Origin: Dictyoglomus turgidum DSM 6724
GTDB lineage: Bacteria; Dictyoglomota; Dictyoglomia; Dictyoglomales; Dictyoglomaceae
Assembly (NCBI RefSeq): GCF_000021645.1
Contig: NC_011661.1
Span: forward strand, 32,723 to 96,722
Reading direction: 5' to 3'
Length of the DNA: 64,000 nucleotides
Made by a program: the position numbers and the translations under genes. Shown here piece by piece: positions 36,040-45,281 of the stretch (its first letter is position 1; the number at the start of each line of letters is the position of its first letter). A model generated the notes under the pieces. The model was not told the origin of the DNA. It saw only the letters and a list, made by a program, of their open reading frames with translations, and searched no databases.

Positions 36040-36495
36040 CTAAGAGATAACTCTTCTTACGTACTCAAGCACATTTTCTATTATTTCTTCTGAAGGATCA
36101 TCCTCTTTCATGATAGTATTAAAAATCTTATCTTCTACCTCTTTAAACTCCTTTCCAAGAGTCCTTGCTATATCTCTTGCACTTAAGTTCCAAGCCTCCC
36201 CAAGAATCATTTTAGCAAGATTCAATTCCCTTTCAGAAAAAAGTTCCTCAAGAGGAAATCTCGAGACAGAAAGCTTATAAAGAATCACAATACTCCTACT
36301 AAAAGCTGGTTCCTCTATAGAGGAATAACTAAAAATCTCTCCTGTATTTAAATCGAGGGCTACAATTCCATTTAAGGTAGGAGGATCATAATGCTCTATA
36401 GCCTTTCTTACGATATCCTCTATATTCATCCTTTGAACTATTCTTCTTATCTTTTTTTCAAGCTCTTTAATATCTCTTTTCTCCAAAAAAATCAC
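36040..36495 (-). CDS. Unknown protein, third gene of an ECF sigma operon
   Basis: 151 residues, soluble and charged. A middle strand pattern (GIVALDLNTGEIFSYSS near 44-60) and a C-terminal helix-turn-helix-like stretch (NLSARDIARTLGKEFKEVEDKI near 103-124) can be seen, but no family is recognised. It starts one base after the anti-sigma stop and is probably co-expressed with it. Confidence 0.6.
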   Translation of the reverse strand: MIFLEKRDIKELEKKIRRIVQRMNIEDIVRKAIEHYDPPTLNGIVALDLNTGEIFSYSSIEEPAFSRSIVILYKLSVSRFPLEELFSERELNLAKMILGEAWNLSARDIARTLGKEFKEVEDKIFNTIMKEDDPSEEIIENVLEYVRRVIS

Positions 36496-36942
36496 CTATT
36501 TATACTTTCTATGCAATCCGTTCTGATAAATAAAAAGAAGTAAAGTAAAAAGAAATAAATAAAAGTTAACTTGAAAGAGTATTTGAAAAAGAGAATTCAG
36601 CATGAAACTTAATAACAAAAAATCCTGCAAAAAAAATCTTCCTACCCTATATACAAAAAAGAAAATTAAGGAAAGAAGAATAATTTCTAAAGATACAAGT
36701 AAAAAAATAAAAACCCTTCTTTTTATTTTTTCATACATCAGCCTATTATAAACACTCTTATAAACCCTACTCCACTCCTTGCCACTCTCTTCTTCAAAAA
36801 CTCTCTCCTTAAGCTTCTCTTCTATTCTTAAGAAATCCTCAAATTCCCTTCTGCATTCATTGCATTCTTCAAGATGAAGAAAGAAATCTTCACCTATTTC
36901 TTCATGTAAAAACATTTTCTCCCTAAATTCTTTACAATTCAT
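36496..36942 (-). CDS. Membrane anti-sigma factor with zinc-binding ZAS motif
   Basis: 148 residues. The N-terminus has C3 and the H23-x3-C27-x2-C30 zinc anti-sigma motif. Hydrophobic segments at about 74-97, 100-118 and 120-138 anchor it in the membrane. Its start overlaps the ECF sigma stop by 4 bases, the usual sigma/anti-sigma layout. It should hold the sigma factor until a signal, perhaps a redox one, releases it. Confidence 0.8.
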   Translation of the reverse strand: MNCKEFREKMFLHEEIGEDFFLHLEECNECRREFEDFLRIEEKLKERVFEEESGKEWSRVYKSVYNRLMYEKIKRRVFIFLLVSLEIILLSLIFFFVYRVGRFFLQDFLLLSFMLNSLFQILFQVNFYLFLFTLLLFIYQNGLHRKYK

Positions 36943-37388
36943 TTTTCCTCCTTTAGATAATTATATATCTTTTTCTTAGCTCTATAAATATGACTTTTTA
37001 AAGTATTCAATGGGATATTTAGCTTCTCACTTATCTCCTCATAAGAATAGCCTTCCTGATAATAAAGAATTAATATACTTTTTTCTAGAGGAGACAAAAG
37101 CTTCCATATATCTTTCTTCTCTATTATTTCTTCAGGATCATATTCATCCTTATCCTCTGTATCCAAATCTAAAAACCTATTCCTCTCTTCGAGGTAATCT
37201 ATAGCAAGATTGTGAGCTATCCTAAAAAGATAGTTTTTAGCAGTTTTTTCCTCAATATTAGTTTTCATAGCCCTTAAAAAAGTCTCTTGAAGGATATCCT
37301 TCGCTGCTTCTTCCTCCCTAAGAAGTTTCCTCAAATACCTATATATCTTTTCACCATAAACTTGAAAATAGCTTATTATATCACTCAT
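36939..37388 (-). CDS. ECF-type RNA polymerase sigma factor
   Basis: A 149-residue sigma-70 family factor. Region 2 includes AAKDILQETFLRAMK and NYLFRIAHNLAIDYLEER; region 4 includes LSPLEKSILILYYQEGYSYEEISEKLNIPLNTLKSHIYRAKKKI. It directs polymerase to its own regulon and normally its own promoter. The TATAAT on its strand (37402-37397) ends 8 bases before the ATG and no ribosome-binding site is seen, suggesting a leaderless message. Confidence 0.9.
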   Translation of the reverse strand: MSDIISYFQVYGEKIYRYLRKLLREEEAAKDILQETFLRAMKTNIEEKTAKNYLFRIAHNLAIDYLEERNRFLDLDTEDKDEYDPEEIIEKKDIWKLLSPLEKSILILYYQEGYSYEEISEKLNIPLNTLKSHIYRAKKKIYNYLKEEK

Positions 37389-38173: not shown

Positions 38174-39406
38174 TTAAAAATATTTCTTTATAAATTCCAT
38201 TACAGCTCCTGATATTATAGGCACACTAAAGTTATCATCAATGGGATTAGGAATTGCCTCTACAATAAAGGCAACAATTGTCCCTACTAATAAAACATAA
38301 AGAGAGATCATTCCTTTAAACCATAAAAAGAAAGACACTACAAGAGCCATACTAAAGAAACCAAGAGACCCTTCTAAGGTTTTCTCAGAATTTTTAAAAA
38401 TCTTTGTCTTTCCAAAATTTATACCAATCCATTTTGCCATCATATCCCCAAGAGAGGTAAATCCTAAGGAAGCAAAAGCAATTTCTTTTTCAAAAAGAAT
38501 AAAACTTATAAAAATCCCCAGCAAAAAATTAGTTATAGAAGATATCCTCCCAACTTCCTTCTCTTTAAAAATCTTAAAATTTTTTACTCCCCTAAGCTGG
38601 AAGAAATCTTCCATCCTTCTTACCAGAATTCTTAACATATCAAGTAAAAAGAAAATTCCAAGAATACCTCCTATTACTAACAGAACAATAAATTTTGAAA
38701 AGAAAACATAAATGGGTATAAATAAAAGAGCAAAAGGTCTTGCTAAAATTCTCCAAAAGGTATGCTTTTCTGTATAAAACCTAAATCCATCTCTTAAAAG
38801 ATTTTTAACAGCCTCATAACTGATAACTCCAGCCAAAATTGCCAGAAATATGGTATCTAAAAGACTTTTGGTATTAATTAACATAAAAAGAGCTATTATA
38901 GGAAAAGCGGTGATAGTAAACACATCTCCTACTCCATGGGTGGCTGTATTTAATAGTAAAAAATAAACGATAAGAAAGATAAAAAACTGCAATATCTGAA
39001 AAGATGCAAAGTTCTGAATTAAAAGTTTAAAAAACAAAAAGATAAAAAGACTTAAAGAGGTAGCAAAACCTCTTCCACCCCTAAAACCTAAATAGAAAGG
39101 AAATTTATGCCCCAAAACAGCAGAAAATCCTCCAAGATAGACAAAAAAATTAGGAAAATTAAAAAGATACTTTAAAAGAATCATAGAAACAAAACCTTTG
39201 GAAACATCATATATGGCGGTAAGTATGGCAGGAAAAATTCCTATAGATCTTTTTACATTCAACACCCCAGGATTTCCATCCCCAAGCTTTCTTATATCTA
39301 CTTTTTTAAACCACAAAGGCAAAAAATATCCAGGCAGAAAAGAACCAAAAAGATAACCCAAAAGAGCTGAAAATATAGCTTTTATTAAGTTTTCTATAAT
39401 AACCAT
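38174..39406 (-). CDS. PlsY-like acyltransferase fused to a DGK1/SEC59/VTE5-type CTP-dependent kinase domain
   Basis: 410 residues, almost all membrane. Residues 1-210 carry PlsY motifs: GSFLPGY (21-27), LGDGNPGVLN (41-50, with GDGNPG for the usual GSGNPG) and GHKFPFYLGFRGGRGFAT (99-116). PlsY moves acyl from acyl-phosphate to glycerol 3-phosphate, the first step of phospholipid synthesis. Residues 240-410 match CTP-dependent lipid kinases: GDMMAKWIGINFGKTKI (320-336), EKTLEGSLGFF (341-351) and an acidic IDDNFSVP (389-396) near the end. I know no standard protein with this pair. It may join phosphatidate synthesis to phosphorylation of a lipid alcohol; this is inference. Confidence 0.78.
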   Translation of the reverse strand: MVIIENLIKAIFSALLGYLFGSFLPGYFLPLWFKKVDIRKLGDGNPGVLNVKRSIGIFPAILTAIYDVSKGFVSMILLKYLFNFPNFFVYLGGFSAVLGHKFPFYLGFRGGRGFATSLSLFIFLFFKLLIQNFASFQILQFFIFLIVYFLLLNTATHGVGDVFTITAFPIIALFMLINTKSLLDTIFLAILAGVISYEAVKNLLRDGFRFYTEKHTFWRILARPFALLFIPIYVFFSKFIVLLVIGGILGIFFLLDMLRILVRRMEDFFQLRGVKNFKIFKEKEVGRISSITNFLLGIFISFILFEKEIAFASLGFTSLGDMMAKWIGINFGKTKIFKNSEKTLEGSLGFFSMALVVSFFLWFKGMISLYVLLVGTIVAFIVEAIPNPIDDNFSVPIISGAVMEFIKKYF

Positions 39407-39463
39407 AATTTAGACCCCCTAAATTTCAAATTAAAAATATTTTATAACAAATAATAAGAAATA

Positions 39464-40451: not shown

Positions 40452-40850
40452 ATGCACGAGTGGGCTCTTGCTGAAGCAGTAGTAAAATCTGCAATAGATA
40501 TGGCTCAAAAGAAAAATCTGAGCCAAATAAAACTTTTATTCCTTAGAGTAGGTGAAGTTCAACAAATTGATATGGAAGTATTTAATTATGCCATAAAGGA
40601 GCTTTCTAAAGGAACTATTTTAGAAAATTCCGAGATAAAGTACGAGATTTTTCCTGCAAAACTGGTTTGCAATAACTGTGGAAATATATGGAGTTATATG
40701 GAAAGTTTTCAAGGACTTACTGATGAAGAAAAAGAAGCTATTCACTTTATACCAGAGACTATTCACGTATATATGAAGTGTCCAAAGTGTAAAAGTGCAG
40801 ATTTTGAGATAAAAGAAGGGAGAGGGGTCTTTATAGAGGACATAAAATGA
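40452..40850 (+). CDS. hypA: Hydrogenase nickel-insertion protein HypA, archaeal-type
   Basis: 132 residues. The nickel ligand H2 starts the protein (MHEWALAEA), and the zinc pairs are C73/C76 and C110/C113. Between them is an insert of 33 residues ending in HFIPETIHVYMKCPKC, like the long HypA of Thermococcus rather than the short bacterial loop. It brings nickel to the large subunit with the ATPase encoded next, whose ATG overlaps its stop by 4 bases. Confidence 0.93.
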   Translation: MHEWALAEAVVKSAIDMAQKKNLSQIKLLFLRVGEVQQIDMEVFNYAIKELSKGTILENSEIKYEIFPAKLVCNNCGNIWSYMESFQGLTDEEKEAIHFIPETIHVYMKCPKCKSADFEIKEGRGVFIEDIK

Positions 40851-41584
40851 CACATGATCCAAGACTTTCAATTATAGACAAAAGATTAGAGAGTGTAAAA
40901 AACATTATTGCTATAGGAAGTGGAAAGGGAGGAGTTGGAAAAAGTACTTTCTCTTCACTTCTTTCCTTATTCCTAAACAAAAAAGGCTATAAAATAGGCC
41001 TCTTAGATTTAGATATTTATGGACCTTCTAACCATGTCATATTAAATGCAGAAGATAAGTATCCTGAAGAAGAATATGGTTTAAAGCCTGTGAATGTAAA
41101 TGGAATAGATTTTATGTCCATAATCTACTTTACTCAAAATAAACCTCTGATTATGCGAGGAAAAGAGCTTACTGATACCATCCTGGAGATATTTGCTATT
41201 ACTCGTTGGAGGGATTTGGATTATTTAATCATTGATATGCCTCCTGGAATGGGAGAAGTACTTTTAGACCTCATAAGATTTATAAAAAACTTACAGTTTC
41301 TTATCATAACCAATCCCACAAAAATAGCCTTAGAAACAGTAGAAAAACTTATAAATTTCCTAAAAGAAGGAAATTATCTCATATTGGGCCTTGTGGAGAA
41401 TATGAAGATAAAAGATGGTAATTTTGTGAAGGAAAAGTGTCAAGAACTGAACATTAAATACTTAGGGCATATCTCTTTCTACGAAAATATAGAAGAAAAC
41501 TATGGAAATATAGAAAAATTAATAAATCCCTCCTTAGAAAAGGAACTTAATCAAATTGTTTCTAATTTCATACAAAAATCTTGA
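40847..41584 (+). CDS. Mrp/MinD-family ATPase in the HypB position
   Basis: 245 residues of a SIMIBI ATPase. The deviant Walker A GKGGVGKST is near residue 26, LLDLDIYGPS follows, and DYLIIDMPPGMG near 126 is the switch II region. It has none of the features of bacterial HypB (no N-terminal metal-binding CxxCGC, no GTPase NKxD). In Thermococcus a protein of this family works as HypB with long HypA, so the overlap with hypA suggests the same role here: ATP-dependent nickel insertion. A generic iron-sulfur carrier (Mrp) is the alternative. Confidence 0.85.
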   Translation: MTHDPRLSIIDKRLESVKNIIAIGSGKGGVGKSTFSSLLSLFLNKKGYKIGLLDLDIYGPSNHVILNAEDKYPEEEYGLKPVNVNGIDFMSIIYFTQNKPLIMRGKELTDTILEIFAITRWRDLDYLIIDMPPGMGEVLLDLIRFIKNLQFLIITNPTKIALETVEKLINFLKEGNYLILGLVENMKIKDGNFVKEKCQELNIKYLGHISFYENIEENYGNIEKLINPSLEKELNQIVSNFIQKS

Positions 41585-41602
41585 AAAGAGAGAGGGTGGA
41601 CT

Positions 41603-43282
41603 ATGGAGAAGATTAAGATTAAGGTCAATGGGAATGAAGTAGAAGTCTCTCCTGGTAAAACAGTCCTTCAGGTTTTAAAAGATATGGGAATCCATGTACC
41701 TGTCTTATGCCATTATGAACCTCTTATGCCTCAAGGATCTTGCAGACTCTGTGTAGTAGAAGATAGAGGAGTTTTAAAAACCGCCTGTACCACCCCTGTA
41801 GAACCTAATATGGACATAAAGACCGATACTCCTAATGTGATAAACTCAAGAAAGTTAGTACTTCAACTACTCTTTAGCGAAAGAAACCACTACTGCATGT
41901 ACTGTGAAGTTACAGGAGAGTGTGAGCTACAAGATTTAGGCTACGAATTTGGCTTAGATCACTTTGAATTTCCTACGTACGAAAGAAGATTTCCTGTAGA
42001 TAACTCTCATGAGTTTATAATGATGGATCACAACCGTTGCGTACTCTGTAGAAGATGCGTAAGAGCTTGCTCTGAAGTAGCAGGACATTTCGTATTAGGA
42101 GAGATGGAAAGAGGAATAGATACAATGATCATTGCAGATATGGATGTACCTCTTGGGAATTCATCCTGCACCTCCTGTGGATTATGCGCCCAAGTATGTC
42201 CTACAGGAGCAATTATTGACAAAAGATCATCTTACCTTGGAAGGGAAGTTCAGTCAGAAATCATATATGCTAATTGCGATATGTGCCCTGTAGGATGTGG
42301 AATGGAAATATACAAGAAAAAAGGAGCTAATTTTATAGTTAAAATATATGGAGATTGGAACTCTGATGTATCTCGCGGACTTCTCTGTAAAACAGGAAGA
42401 TATCTCTCTTTATATGATGCAAAAGAAAGAGTCGTGGGCATAAAATTGAAGGATGAATTTGGATATAGAAGACTTCATGAAGACAATCTAATAAACATCT
42501 TCAAGAGCAAATTAGATAATGCAATTGCCTATGTAGATGGCTCTCTTTTCAATGAAGAGATAGAAATGATAAAAGAAATCTTCAAAGACAAAGTATATTC
42601 TCTTTATCCTAATGAGTCTCCTATACCTACAAATATTAAGCTATCTGAGCTTGATGACAAAGAATTTTACGTGGTCATAAATGCAGACCTAAACAGGGAA
42701 TATGGAGCGGTAGGATCCATTGTAAAGAGAAATGTGATAGGCAAAAAGGCAAAGTTAATGGTGATTGATAAGGAGTTCAATAGCCTTGCTAAGATAGCTG
42801 ATTATGTATTCAATATAAAGGATCTCAATTTAGCATTAGATATATTAAAGAAGCAAAAAGAAGTAATAATTATTTATAAAGATATTAATGAGGAAGAAAA
42901 ATCAACTCTCAATTCATTGAACAATGCCAAATTCTTATATCTTCCAAAAGAGACTAATTCTATTGGACTTCAAAAATATGGAATTAAGCATGAAAAAGCA
43001 AAAGCAGAAAATGTCTTTGTCTTTGGAAAGAATTTAGAGGGTATAAAAGATCTTCCATTACAAAATTCCTTTGTAGTAGTTTTTACTCCTTATGAAGATG
43101 AAATTTTAAGAAGGGCAGATGTTATAGTAGGAACAACTAATGGCTTTGAGAGAGAAGGAACCTTCTATAACTTAGAAGGAAAGATACTTAAGAAAGAAAA
43201 GGTCTTAAGACCAGATTTTGATGTATTAGATTTAAAATCTTTCCTTTCCAATGTATTAGGAAAAACTGAAAAAGTATCTTAA
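41603..43282 (+). CDS. NuoG/HoxU-like iron-sulfur subunit of the hydrogenase
   Basis: 559 residues that carry electrons. Cysteines C36, C47, C50, C62 form the [2Fe-2S] site. H96, C98, C101, C107 resemble the NuoG His/Cys4 [4Fe-4S] site, though the histidine is one residue rather than three from the first cysteine. C146/149/152/156 with C189/192/195/199 make a two-cluster ferredoxin domain, and C225/228/232 with C262 give another. From about 270 the protein is a reduced molybdopterin-oxidoreductase-like domain with no visible cofactor site. It lies just before the small subunit. No flavin/NAD subunit (NuoF/HoxF) is adjacent. Confidence 0.87.
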   Translation: MEKIKIKVNGNEVEVSPGKTVLQVLKDMGIHVPVLCHYEPLMPQGSCRLCVVEDRGVLKTACTTPVEPNMDIKTDTPNVINSRKLVLQLLFSERNHYCMYCEVTGECELQDLGYEFGLDHFEFPTYERRFPVDNSHEFIMMDHNRCVLCRRCVRACSEVAGHFVLGEMERGIDTMIIADMDVPLGNSSCTSCGLCAQVCPTGAIIDKRSSYLGREVQSEIIYANCDMCPVGCGMEIYKKKGANFIVKIYGDWNSDVSRGLLCKTGRYLSLYDAKERVVGIKLKDEFGYRRLHEDNLINIFKSKLDNAIAYVDGSLFNEEIEMIKEIFKDKVYSLYPNESPIPTNIKLSELDDKEFYVVINADLNREYGAVGSIVKRNVIGKKAKLMVIDKEFNSLAKIADYVFNIKDLNLALDILKKQKEVIIIYKDINEEEKSTLNSLNNAKFLYLPKETNSIGLQKYGIKHEKAKAENVFVFGKNLEGIKDLPLQNSFVVVFTPYEDEILRRADVIVGTTNGFEREGTFYNLEGKILKKEKVLRPDFDVLDLKSFLSNVLGKTEKVS

Positions 43283-43301
43283 AAAAACGAGGTGAAAAAC
43301 T

Positions 43302-43844
43302 ATGGGAAAGATAAAAGTTGCCTCCATATGGTGTGAAGGGTGTTCAGGATGCCATATGTCCTTTCTTGATATGGACGAAAGATTAGTGGAATTAATAAAT
43401 AAAGGGCTTGAAATAAACGCTACTCCTATAACGGACTTAAAGATTCCTGACGAGGAAACTGATATTGGAATAATTGAAGGAGCAGTAGCAACAGATCACC
43501 ATGAAGAAGAAGTAAAAATGATGAGGGAGAGATGCAAAATAATTGTAGCCCTTGGAGATTGCGCAGTCTTTGGTGGTATTCCTACCATGAGAAACTACTT
43601 CTCAAAAGAAGAATTATTAGAAAGAGGTTATATCACCACAGAAAGCACCGTAGATGGTAAAATACCAACTTCAAAGGAGATAGGAAAACATCTCCCTAAA
43701 ACAAAGGCGGTAAATGAAGTAATAAAAGTTGACCTCTATATTCCAGGATGTCCCCCTTCAGCAGATGCCATATATTATGTATTAAAGGAAGTTCTTGAGG
43801 GAAGAATTCCCAAATTAGAAGGCGAACTTCTTAAGTATGAATAA
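43302..43844 (+). CDS. hoxY: [NiFe] hydrogenase small subunit, HoxY type
   Basis: 180 residues, the short form of soluble group 3 hydrogenases. C14 and C17 (EGCSGCHMSFLD), C87 (GDCAVFGG) and C150 (PGCPPSAD) are the expected ligands of the single proximal [4Fe-4S] cluster. An extra C11 is next to them. There is no twin-arginine signal, so the enzyme is cytoplasmic. Confidence 0.92.
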   Translation: MGKIKVASIWCEGCSGCHMSFLDMDERLVELINKGLEINATPITDLKIPDEETDIGIIEGAVATDHHEEEVKMMRERCKIIVALGDCAVFGGIPTMRNYFSKEELLERGYITTESTVDGKIPTSKEIGKHLPKTKAVNEVIKVDLYIPGCPPSADAIYYVLKEVLEGRIPKLEGELLKYE

Positions 43845-43856
43845 GAGGTGATAAAT

Positions 43857-45281
43857 ATGGAAAAGAAGATTACTATAAGTCCAGTTACAAGAATAGAAGG
43901 ACATGCAAGGGTTACTATTCATCTTAATGATGACGGAAAAGTAGAAAGTGCTTTCTTCCATGTAGATCAATTTAGAGGATTTGAAAAATTCTCAGAAGGA
44001 AGGCACTTTTCAGAAATGCCTGTTATTACTGAAAGAATCTGCGGTATATGTCCTATAAGTCACCACTTAGCCTCTGCAAAGGCCACCGATGAGATCATAG
44101 GCGTAGAAATCCCAAGAACCGCTAAACTTCTAAGAGAACTCATTCACATGGGACAGATTATTCAGTCCCATTCCATGCACTTTTTTGAATTAGCAGGACC
44201 AGACCTTATTTTAGGTTGGGATGCAGATCCAAAGATCAGAAATGTGGTAGGATTAATTCAGGAAAATCCAGAACTTGCACTAAAAGCAGTAAAATTAAGA
44301 AAATTTGGACAAAGAATTATTGAACTTGTAGCAGGAAGAAGAATACATCCTACCTTTGCAGTTCCAGGAGGAGTTAATTCTTCTTTATCTCCCTCTGCAA
44401 GAGACGAAATTTTAAGTGGAATTGATGAAATGATTGGATACATTAAAGAGGGAATAAAAATAGCTGAAGACTTCATAGAAAAGAATAAAGAACTCTGCGA
44501 CGAATTTGCTTCCTTTCCCACAGGTTATATGGGACTTGTAAAAGAAGATGGTTCTCTTGAGCTTTATGATGGAAAAATAAGATTTATGGATAAAGATGGA
44601 AATATACTTAAAGAGTTTAAGCCTCAATATTATTTGCGATATATTGGAGAAAGGGTTGAAGATTGGACCTATTTAAAATTCCCATATTATAAACCCTTAG
44701 GATATCCTAACGGAGTTTATAGAGTAGGTCCTTTAGCAAGATTAAACATAGCTGACAAAATTAGCACACCTCTTGCCAATGAAGAATTCAAGAAATTTAA
44801 ATCCATTAATAATGGAAAACCAGTAGAAGGTTCCATATACTACCATTATGCAAGACTTATTGAAACTGTCTATGCCCTTGAAAGAGCAAGAGAAATCTTA
44901 GAAGATCCTGAGGTAATGAGCCAGAATGTATTAAAGATGGGAGAGGTGACTAATGAAGAAGGGGTAGGAGTAGTAGAAGCTCCAAGAGGAACCTTAATCC
45001 ACCATTACTGGGTAGATGAAAGGGGAACCATTGAGAAGGTGAATTTGATTGTATCCACAGGACATAATAATTGGGCTATGAGTAAAGCAGTAGAGATGGT
45101 AGCAAAAGCCTTTGTGGATGGTAAAAATCTTAAAGAAGGTATGCTTAATAGGGTTGAGGGGGCTATTAGATGTTATGATCCTTGTCTTTCTTGTTCTACT
45201 CATGCTATAGGAAAGATGCCCATTGTAGTTGAACTATACGACAAAGACGGAAACATCATTGATGTTATAAAGAGAGATTGA
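43857..45281 (+). CDS. hoxH: [NiFe] hydrogenase large subunit, HoxH type
   Basis: 474 residues. RICGICPISHH (C62, C65) and the C-terminal DPCLSCSTH (C443, C446) hold nickel and iron. The 25 residues after H449 are the tail removed by the maturation protease after nickel is inserted. I chose ATG 43857, 6 bases after GAGGTG; an in-frame GTG at 43848 lies inside that site. This layout fits soluble group 3 enzymes that take up or make H2 with a soluble carrier. Confidence 0.94.
   Translation: MEKKITISPVTRIEGHARVTIHLNDDGKVESAFFHVDQFRGFEKFSEGRHFSEMPVITERICGICPISHHLASAKATDEIIGVEIPRTAKLLRELIHMGQIIQSHSMHFFELAGPDLILGWDADPKIRNVVGLIQENPELALKAVKLRKFGQRIIELVAGRRIHPTFAVPGGVNSSLSPSARDEILSGIDEMIGYIKEGIKIAEDFIEKNKELCDEFASFPTGYMGLVKEDGSLELYDGKIRFMDKDGNILKEFKPQYYLRYIGERVEDWTYLKFPYYKPLGYPNGVYRVGPLARLNIADKISTPLANEEFKKFKSINNGKPVEGSIYYHYARLIETVYALERAREILEDPEVMSQNVLKMGEVTNEEGVGVVEAPRGTLIHHYWVDERGTIEKVNLIVSTGHNNWAMSKAVEMVAKAFVDGKNLKEGMLNRVEGAIRCYDPCLSCSTHAIGKMPIVVELYDKDGNIIDVIKRD

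Follow-up and report, generated by a model that had tools for sequence, protein, structure and literature searches.

A recurring pairing of a PlsY-like acyltransferase domain with a putative SEC59/DGK1-type kinase domain, fused in Dictyoglomus turgidum and altered in both active sites

Few bacterial pathways are mapped as well as phospholipid synthesis. For the acyltransferase PlsY, the active site has been described in aaPlsY, where Ser35, Arg45, Lys104 and Asn180 clamp the phosphate of glycerol 3-phosphate (G3P), Ser142 and His177 contact its 2-hydroxyl group, and His92 together with a GGKG loop forms the acyl-phosphate site (PMC5700162). Replacement of Ser35 or His177 by alanine leaves 4.8% and 6.5% of the activity, respectively, in both cases with a higher Km for G3P, while a Lys-to-Arg exchange at position 104 is tolerated (25% activity) (PMC5700162). 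PlsY shows some acceptor flexibility, since glycerol 1-phosphate is also used (PMC13400652). Less is established for the bacterial SEC59-type proteins, which belong with the SEC59/DGK1/VTE5 kinases to the CTP-transferase superfamily; a search of the openly licensed literature yielded no established substrate for these proteins in general. Here, a protein is described in which domains of both types are joined in one polypeptide.

The fusion gene and its domains

The gene is located on the minus strand of the window, the 64,000-nucleotide stretch of Dictyoglomus turgidum DNA analysed here (Table 1), which is part of a genome of 1,855,560 bases in one contig. Its reading frame extends from an ATG at 39406 to a stop codon ending at 38174 and is unbroken by internal stop codons. 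These limits coincide exactly with those of the preliminary description, and all motifs quoted there (of the GDGNPG, GD..A..IG, EGS and DDN..VP types) are found in the translation of 410 amino acids. The gene forms a single-gene unit, with a homocysteine-methyltransferase-like gene running divergently and a glycosyltransferase-like gene converging on it at a distance of 6 bp. A promoter scan returned sites no more numerous than in shuffled sequence. Elsewhere in the window, three minus-strand genes (36040–37388) resemble those for an ECF sigma factor, a membrane protein of the anti-sigma type and a small partner protein, and a row on the plus strand (40452–45281) contains genes for NiFe-hydrogenase-type subunits together with a HypA-like gene and one for an Mrp-like ATPase.

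Table 1. Features of the fusion gene and its product; positions refer to the window.
Feature	Residues	Position	Strand	Remarks
Fusion gene, PlsY-like half and SEC59/DGK1-type CTP-dependent kinase half (putative)		38174..39406	-	410 aa
Shine-Dalgarno-like AGGGGG		39415..39420	-	8 nt upstream of the ATG of the fusion gene
PlsY-like half	1-205	38792..39406	-	PF02660 match; PlsY fold; best Foldseek matches 5xj5-5xj8
GDGNPG	42-47	39266..39283	-	Clamp residue Ser35 of aaPlsY is Asp43 here
GHKFPFYLGFRGGRG	99-113	39068..39112	-	Acyl-phosphate site; His92 present (His100 here), Lys104 replaced by Arg
YEAVKN	197-202	38801..38818	-	H-x-x-N in standard PlsY; His177 replaced by Ala, Asn180 present
Kinase half (putative)	206-410	38174..38791	-	CTP-transferase superfamily
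WRILARP	218-224	38735..38755	-	R-x-x-x-R; R-K-x-x-H in free-standing relatives
SLGDMMAKWIG	318-328	38423..38455	-	Superfamily motif GD..A..vG with first catalytic-type Asp
KTLEGS	342-347	38366..38383	-	K(T/S)LEGS motif
IDDNFSVP	389-396	38219..38242	-	Second Asp motif, of the SEC59/DGK1 type; replaces the CDS signature

The assignment of a PlsY domain followed by a CTP-dependent kinase domain, made in the preliminary description from motifs, is borne out by domain searches, directly for the N-terminal half and at the level of a family profile for the C-terminal half. Residues 16–203 match Pfam family PF02660 (E 7e-32; 111 bits, the cut-off being 24.1), and in a search of PDB sequences a solved PlsY matches residues 9–180 (E 4e-14). 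With 75.8 the protein scores below the cut-off of the PlsY equivalog TIGR00023 (137.2). For the C-terminal half alone, single-sequence searches of Pfam, NCBIfam and the PDB gave no match, but a profile of 13 members (the window protein and 12 relatives) detects the CdsA protein of the same genome with an E-value of 7e-9. Moreover, hhalign aligns the C-terminal half with CdsA at 95.5% probability (E 1.6e-8) over the region GD..A..vG..fGk.k...KTLEGS, and three of the 13 profile members match PF01148 directly (best 3.5e-8). On these three lines of evidence the C-terminal half belongs to the CTP-transferase superfamily. Against PDB sequences, the same profile gave no credible match.

AlphaFold predicts, in a confident single model (pLDDT 90.3, pTM 0.86), two helical membrane domains. 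Structure searches with the full model returned PlsY matches only; with the C-terminal half, CdsA (4q2g) occupies ranks 1 and 2 and an archaeal lipid enzyme (5guf) rank 4, none of these matches being significant.

Recurrence of the pair across genomes

Among 290 sampled genomes, 74 SEC59-type domains were examined together with their surroundings. Eleven of them adjoin a PlsY, six by fusion and five as immediate neighbours on the same strand, where about 0.1 such adjacencies would be expected by chance, as roughly estimated from gene numbers. The six fusions belong to four Dictyoglomus-group genomes and to G052 and G198; the five tandem pairs, which often overlap, are found in G044, G189, G167, G130 and G267. 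Since the two domains are fused or adjacent in several phyla, the pair is regarded as a recurring module, which lends support to the coupling of two activities put forward in the preliminary description.

Genomes that were assembled independently contain the intact fusion, with 80%, 65% and 65% identity within the Dictyoglomus group and 43% identity in G052, which lies outside the family Dictyoglomaceae; one congener copy in the range of 65%–80% is interrupted by a contig end. A scan of genome contigs with the whole protein found one Dictyoglomaceae copy (from a MAG) and otherwise only one distant PlsY. In the phylum of G052 all 3 genomes carry the fusion, in that of G198 it is present in 27 of 103, and no unfused kinase of the module type was seen in these 103 genomes. 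The latter phylum is probably Thermotogota, because the uronate isomerase encoded next to the fusion is closest to PDB entry 1j5s, the T. maritima protein. The survey for further fusions suggested earlier was thus successful in two other phyla. As for the tandem arrangement, kinase and PlsY genes are adjacent in both genomes of the G044 phylum (2/2), while in the G267 phylum the kinase occurs in 26 of 35 genomes with PlsY immediately adjacent in 23 of the 26, and two of the remaining three lie at contig ends.

According to the trees of the kinase halves and of the PlsY halves, fusion must have taken place at least twice. A single kinase clade is compatible with the eleven modules of the first sample (AU p 0.69), and the PlsY half of the window protein falls outside the cluster of standard PlsY. 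Purifying selection acts on both halves, with dN/dS values of 0.16 and 0.12 in comparison with the congener G002. The neighbourhoods of 28 module loci contain no lipid gene common across phyla and no consistent pathway. N-terminal extensions of free-standing kinases are limited to a HAD hydrolase, an FlgD Ig-like domain accompanied by NHL repeats, and unmatched sequence. Two free-standing SEC59-type domains (L140, 5986–7362; L146, 5980–7266) are located in frames of about 430–460 amino acids; in L140 the HAD hydrolase precedes the SEC59-type domain, a possible phosphatase–kinase combination.

Active sites and further lipid genes

In the PlsY half of the window protein, the G3P pocket deviates from that of aaPlsY: Ser35 corresponds to Asp, Lys104 to Arg and His177 to Ala, while Arg45 and Asn180 are kept. 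The acyl-phosphate site, formed by the segments GHKFPF (residues 99–104) and GFRGGRG (residues 107–113), retains His92 and has GGRG as its loop; here Thr41 is replaced by Leu. The sequence GDGNPG had already raised doubt about the activity, a doubt which the Asp at position 35 strengthens; its earlier label as motif 2 needs correction, as it lies in Motif 1 (aaPlsY 34–45, PMC5700162). The same pattern extends across the module, for which 60 PlsYs were scored alongside 28 others. His177 is found in none of the 59 scorable module PlsYs and in 26 of the 28 others, and Ser35 in 3 of 58, all three fused, against 26 of 28. The motif-3 sequence of the tandem forms differs and makes their alignment in that motif less certain than that of the fused forms. 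In 54 of the 58, Ser35 is exchanged for Thr or Asp. His92, Gly102 and the GG loop, on the other hand, are present in all 60, and the fused forms always contain Asn180 and mostly Arg45. In L180–L189 (G198 phylum, families f51 and f227), which apparently represent a second fusion lineage independent of the first, the GGKG loop reads GGVG or GGIG and the equivalent of Lys104 is gone.

The genome of the window also encodes a standard PlsY (L002), PlsX, a DgkA-type gene (PF01219) and a PF00781-type gene. Module genomes contain two to five PF02660 matches each, and PlsX is present in all nine that were tested. Because other PlsY copies and PlsX are kept in these genomes, and PF01219 and PF00781 genes in the genome of the window, the module is additional to ordinary phosphatidate synthesis. 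With His177 lost throughout the module, Ser35 mostly lost, and standard PlsY and PlsX at hand, the ordinary acylation of G3P that had been proposed for the N-terminal half looks unlikely. The combination of a largely kept acyl-phosphate site with lost G3P contacts rather points to acyl transfer onto another acceptor, in which case some "PlsY" annotations in these genomes would be misnomers. Salvage of diacylglycerol as the sole purpose of the C-terminal half, also considered previously, is weakened by the DgkA-type and PF00781-type genes and by the standard PlsX and PlsY; plain diacylglycerol salvage looks unlikely, and a role as the only diacylglycerol or undecaprenol kinase of the genome was dropped.

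Two more non-standard PlsY-like genes are arranged in tandem at about 343.7–345.8 kb of G000:C1 (L003 1–321 and 1480–2079). The complete one reads RDGNPGASN and is altered in the third motif; no kinase gene lies beside the tandem within the stretch examined. In the congener, the DgkA-type gene (PF01219; G002:C1:1167285–1167579) appears broken, with two frames and in-frame stops.

In the C-terminal half, the GD..A..vG (GDMMAKWIG, residues 320–328), K(T/S)LEGS and (D/N)DN motifs of the SEC59/DGK1/VTE5 type are all present. The CDS signature KDx5PGHGGx2DRxD is found in none of the 63 module kinases and is present in the CdsA of the genome. With this signature missing and a DDN..VP motif in place, the C-terminal half looks like a member of the superfamily resembling SEC59/DGK1/VTE5 rather than CdsA. 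The family motifs named in the preliminary description are therefore confirmed; what it overlooked is a further change at the domain start that extends across the module. From bacterial relatives, an RK-x-x-H motif was defined here for this position, the free-standing relatives being sampled at about one per family. Its His is present in 62 of 62 scorable free-standing relatives, whereas the second basic position in the module kinases is Arg in 62 of 63 and Lys in one; L195, for instance, reads RKLYR. The window protein has R-I-x-x-R instead, with Ile in place of the Lys after the first Arg. Two free-standing relatives from the same phylum as fusions (L191 and L192) retain the His, so that the His-to-Arg exchange is a trait of the module and not of the phylum. 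In yeast Dgk1, the Lys after the first Arg, equivalent to the Ile of the window protein, is required.

Proposed function and relation to known systems

The reading slightly favoured here is that of a bifunctional membrane lipid enzyme, whose halves act consecutively on one lipid and have both changed their substrates. The N-terminal half would be a PlsY paralogue with retained acyl-phosphate binding and a remodelled acceptor pocket, most likely acylating an acceptor other than G3P, such as the phosphate of a lipid alcohol or some other derivative of glycerol. A CTP-dependent phosphate transfer of the SEC59/DGK1 type may be catalysed by the C-terminal half, whose substrate site would have been altered in step with the N-terminal half. 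Action of the two halves on the same lipid, one after the other in either order, would account for the fused genes of some phyla and the overlapping pairs of others, and the matching alteration of the kinase half suggests an unusual substrate common to both. Catalysis by both halves, their action in sequence and an acceptor different from G3P are proposed, on the basis of sequence comparisons, with about even confidence. However, residual activity with G3P is possible: the equivalents of Arg45 and Asn180 remain in the window protein, Lys104-to-Arg is tolerated in aaPlsY, and three fused members keep Ser35. As to the kinase half, the role assigned to the His of R-x-x-x-H is an assumption, and its loss is not readable as a specific chemistry.

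The occurrence of a split form in other phyla prompted a test of whether the joining of two genes was due to an error in sequencing or assembly. No support for such an artefact was found, and it can practically be dismissed: separately assembled genomes share the intact fusion, both halves are under purifying selection, and conservation across the Dictyoglomus group and two other phyla refutes an error as its origin, confirming the fusion as genuine. An ordinary G3P acyltransferase, joined to a C-terminal half which salvages diacylglycerol, monoacylglycerol or an isoprenoid alcohol so that both feed (lyso)phosphatidate, would agree with fold and family of both halves, with Asn180 and, mostly, Arg45 in the fused forms, and with the acceptor flexibility of PlsY. 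This is nevertheless unlikely in view of the loss of His177 in all scored modules, the change of Ser35 in nearly all, the standard PlsX, PlsY, DgkA-type and PF00781-type genes of the genome, and a kinase half that differs from every free-standing relative at one invariant site.

The latter exchange, of His for Arg or once for Lys in all 63 modules and in no free-standing relative, the two His-type relatives of the same phylum included, could also mean that the C-terminal half acts on an ionised group, since Arg in place of a base-like His would suit a carboxylate or a phosphate better than an alcohol. It would then be either a CTP-dependent carboxylate kinase supplying acyl phosphate to the PlsY half or a CDP-lipid synthase that uses the phosphorylated product of the PlsY half, both directly consecutive with PlsY chemistry. 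Apart from the assumed role of the His, the former is opposed by PlsX in all nine module genomes tested, by which acyl phosphate can already be made, and the latter by the lack of the CDS signature in every module kinase, which leaves an ionised substrate quite unlikely. Distinctly unlikely is a non-catalytic PlsY half that would serve the kinase as a scaffold in the membrane or as a partner that binds lipid. Its G3P-clamp residues are eroded, the fused subclade L180–L189 has Val or Ile at Lys104, and eukaryotic dolichol kinases also bear a membrane domain at the N-terminus whose role is unclear (PMC11542857); yet His92 and the GG loop are invariant, the PlsY half is under purifying selection, and pairing with PlsY recurs, with fusion having arisen at least twice.

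Going further, a CTP-using membrane enzyme for an ionised group and an acyl-phosphate transferase whose acceptor is new might together form a widespread bacterial lipid module, an idea that is rather doubtful at present. Its two variants are speculative: a membrane CTP:fatty-acid kinase from which the partner directly receives acyl phosphate, or a route by which one protein yields an activated lipid. If true, either would be a new entry into the synthesis of bacterial membrane lipids, seen most clearly in thermophiles. For the favoured bifunctional enzyme with changed substrates, the fusion of halves that probably share one lipid narrows the search for the substrate and makes the question directly testable. 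In either case the pair is conserved as a unit in several phyla, with matched active-site changes, and no assigned reaction was found for it despite the well-mapped pathway.

Both halves belong to known families; their pairing with joint active-site changes is probably undescribed, and no description of a PlsY–kinase pairing was found in the openly licensed literature searched. With PlsY (PF02660; aaPlsY, 5xj5–5xj9) the N-terminal half shares the fold, the length, the acyl-phosphate loop GHxxP...GG(K/R)G, the GxGNxG loop and the equivalents of Arg45 and Asn180. It differs in the exchanges at positions 35, 41, 104 and 177 (Asp, Leu, Arg and Ala for Ser, Thr, Lys and His), in its place outside the standard cluster of the tree and in its fusion to a kinase-type domain. 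The C-terminal half resembles the SEC59/DGK1/VTE5 kinases (COG0170, within PF01148) in the motifs GD..A..vG..fGk.k, K(T/S)LEGS and E..P..(D/N)DN..vP and in domain length. The spacing of its Arg, Asp and Gly is 102 + 7, similar to the 101 + 7 of yeast Dgk1 (R76, D177 and G184). Unlike these kinases, it has R-x-x-x-R for RK-x-x-H, Ile after the first Arg, and a fused PlsY. CdsA (PF01148; 4q2g) is linked to it by superfamily, hhalign match and best, though not significant, fold match, but carries the signature KDx5PGHGGx2DRxD, and the C-terminal half is shorter (about 200 residues). Archaeal double-domain proteins of arCOG02245 likewise fuse a SEC59-like domain to a second membrane lipid-enzyme domain, which there is DUF92/cytidylyltransferase-like and not PlsY (PMC5898192). 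Since each half departs from a defining active-site feature of its family, neither is claimed here as a true PlsY or a true DGK1/SEC59 kinase; judged by its motifs, the fusion protein would work in part like PlsY and in part like the DGK1/SEC59 enzymes.
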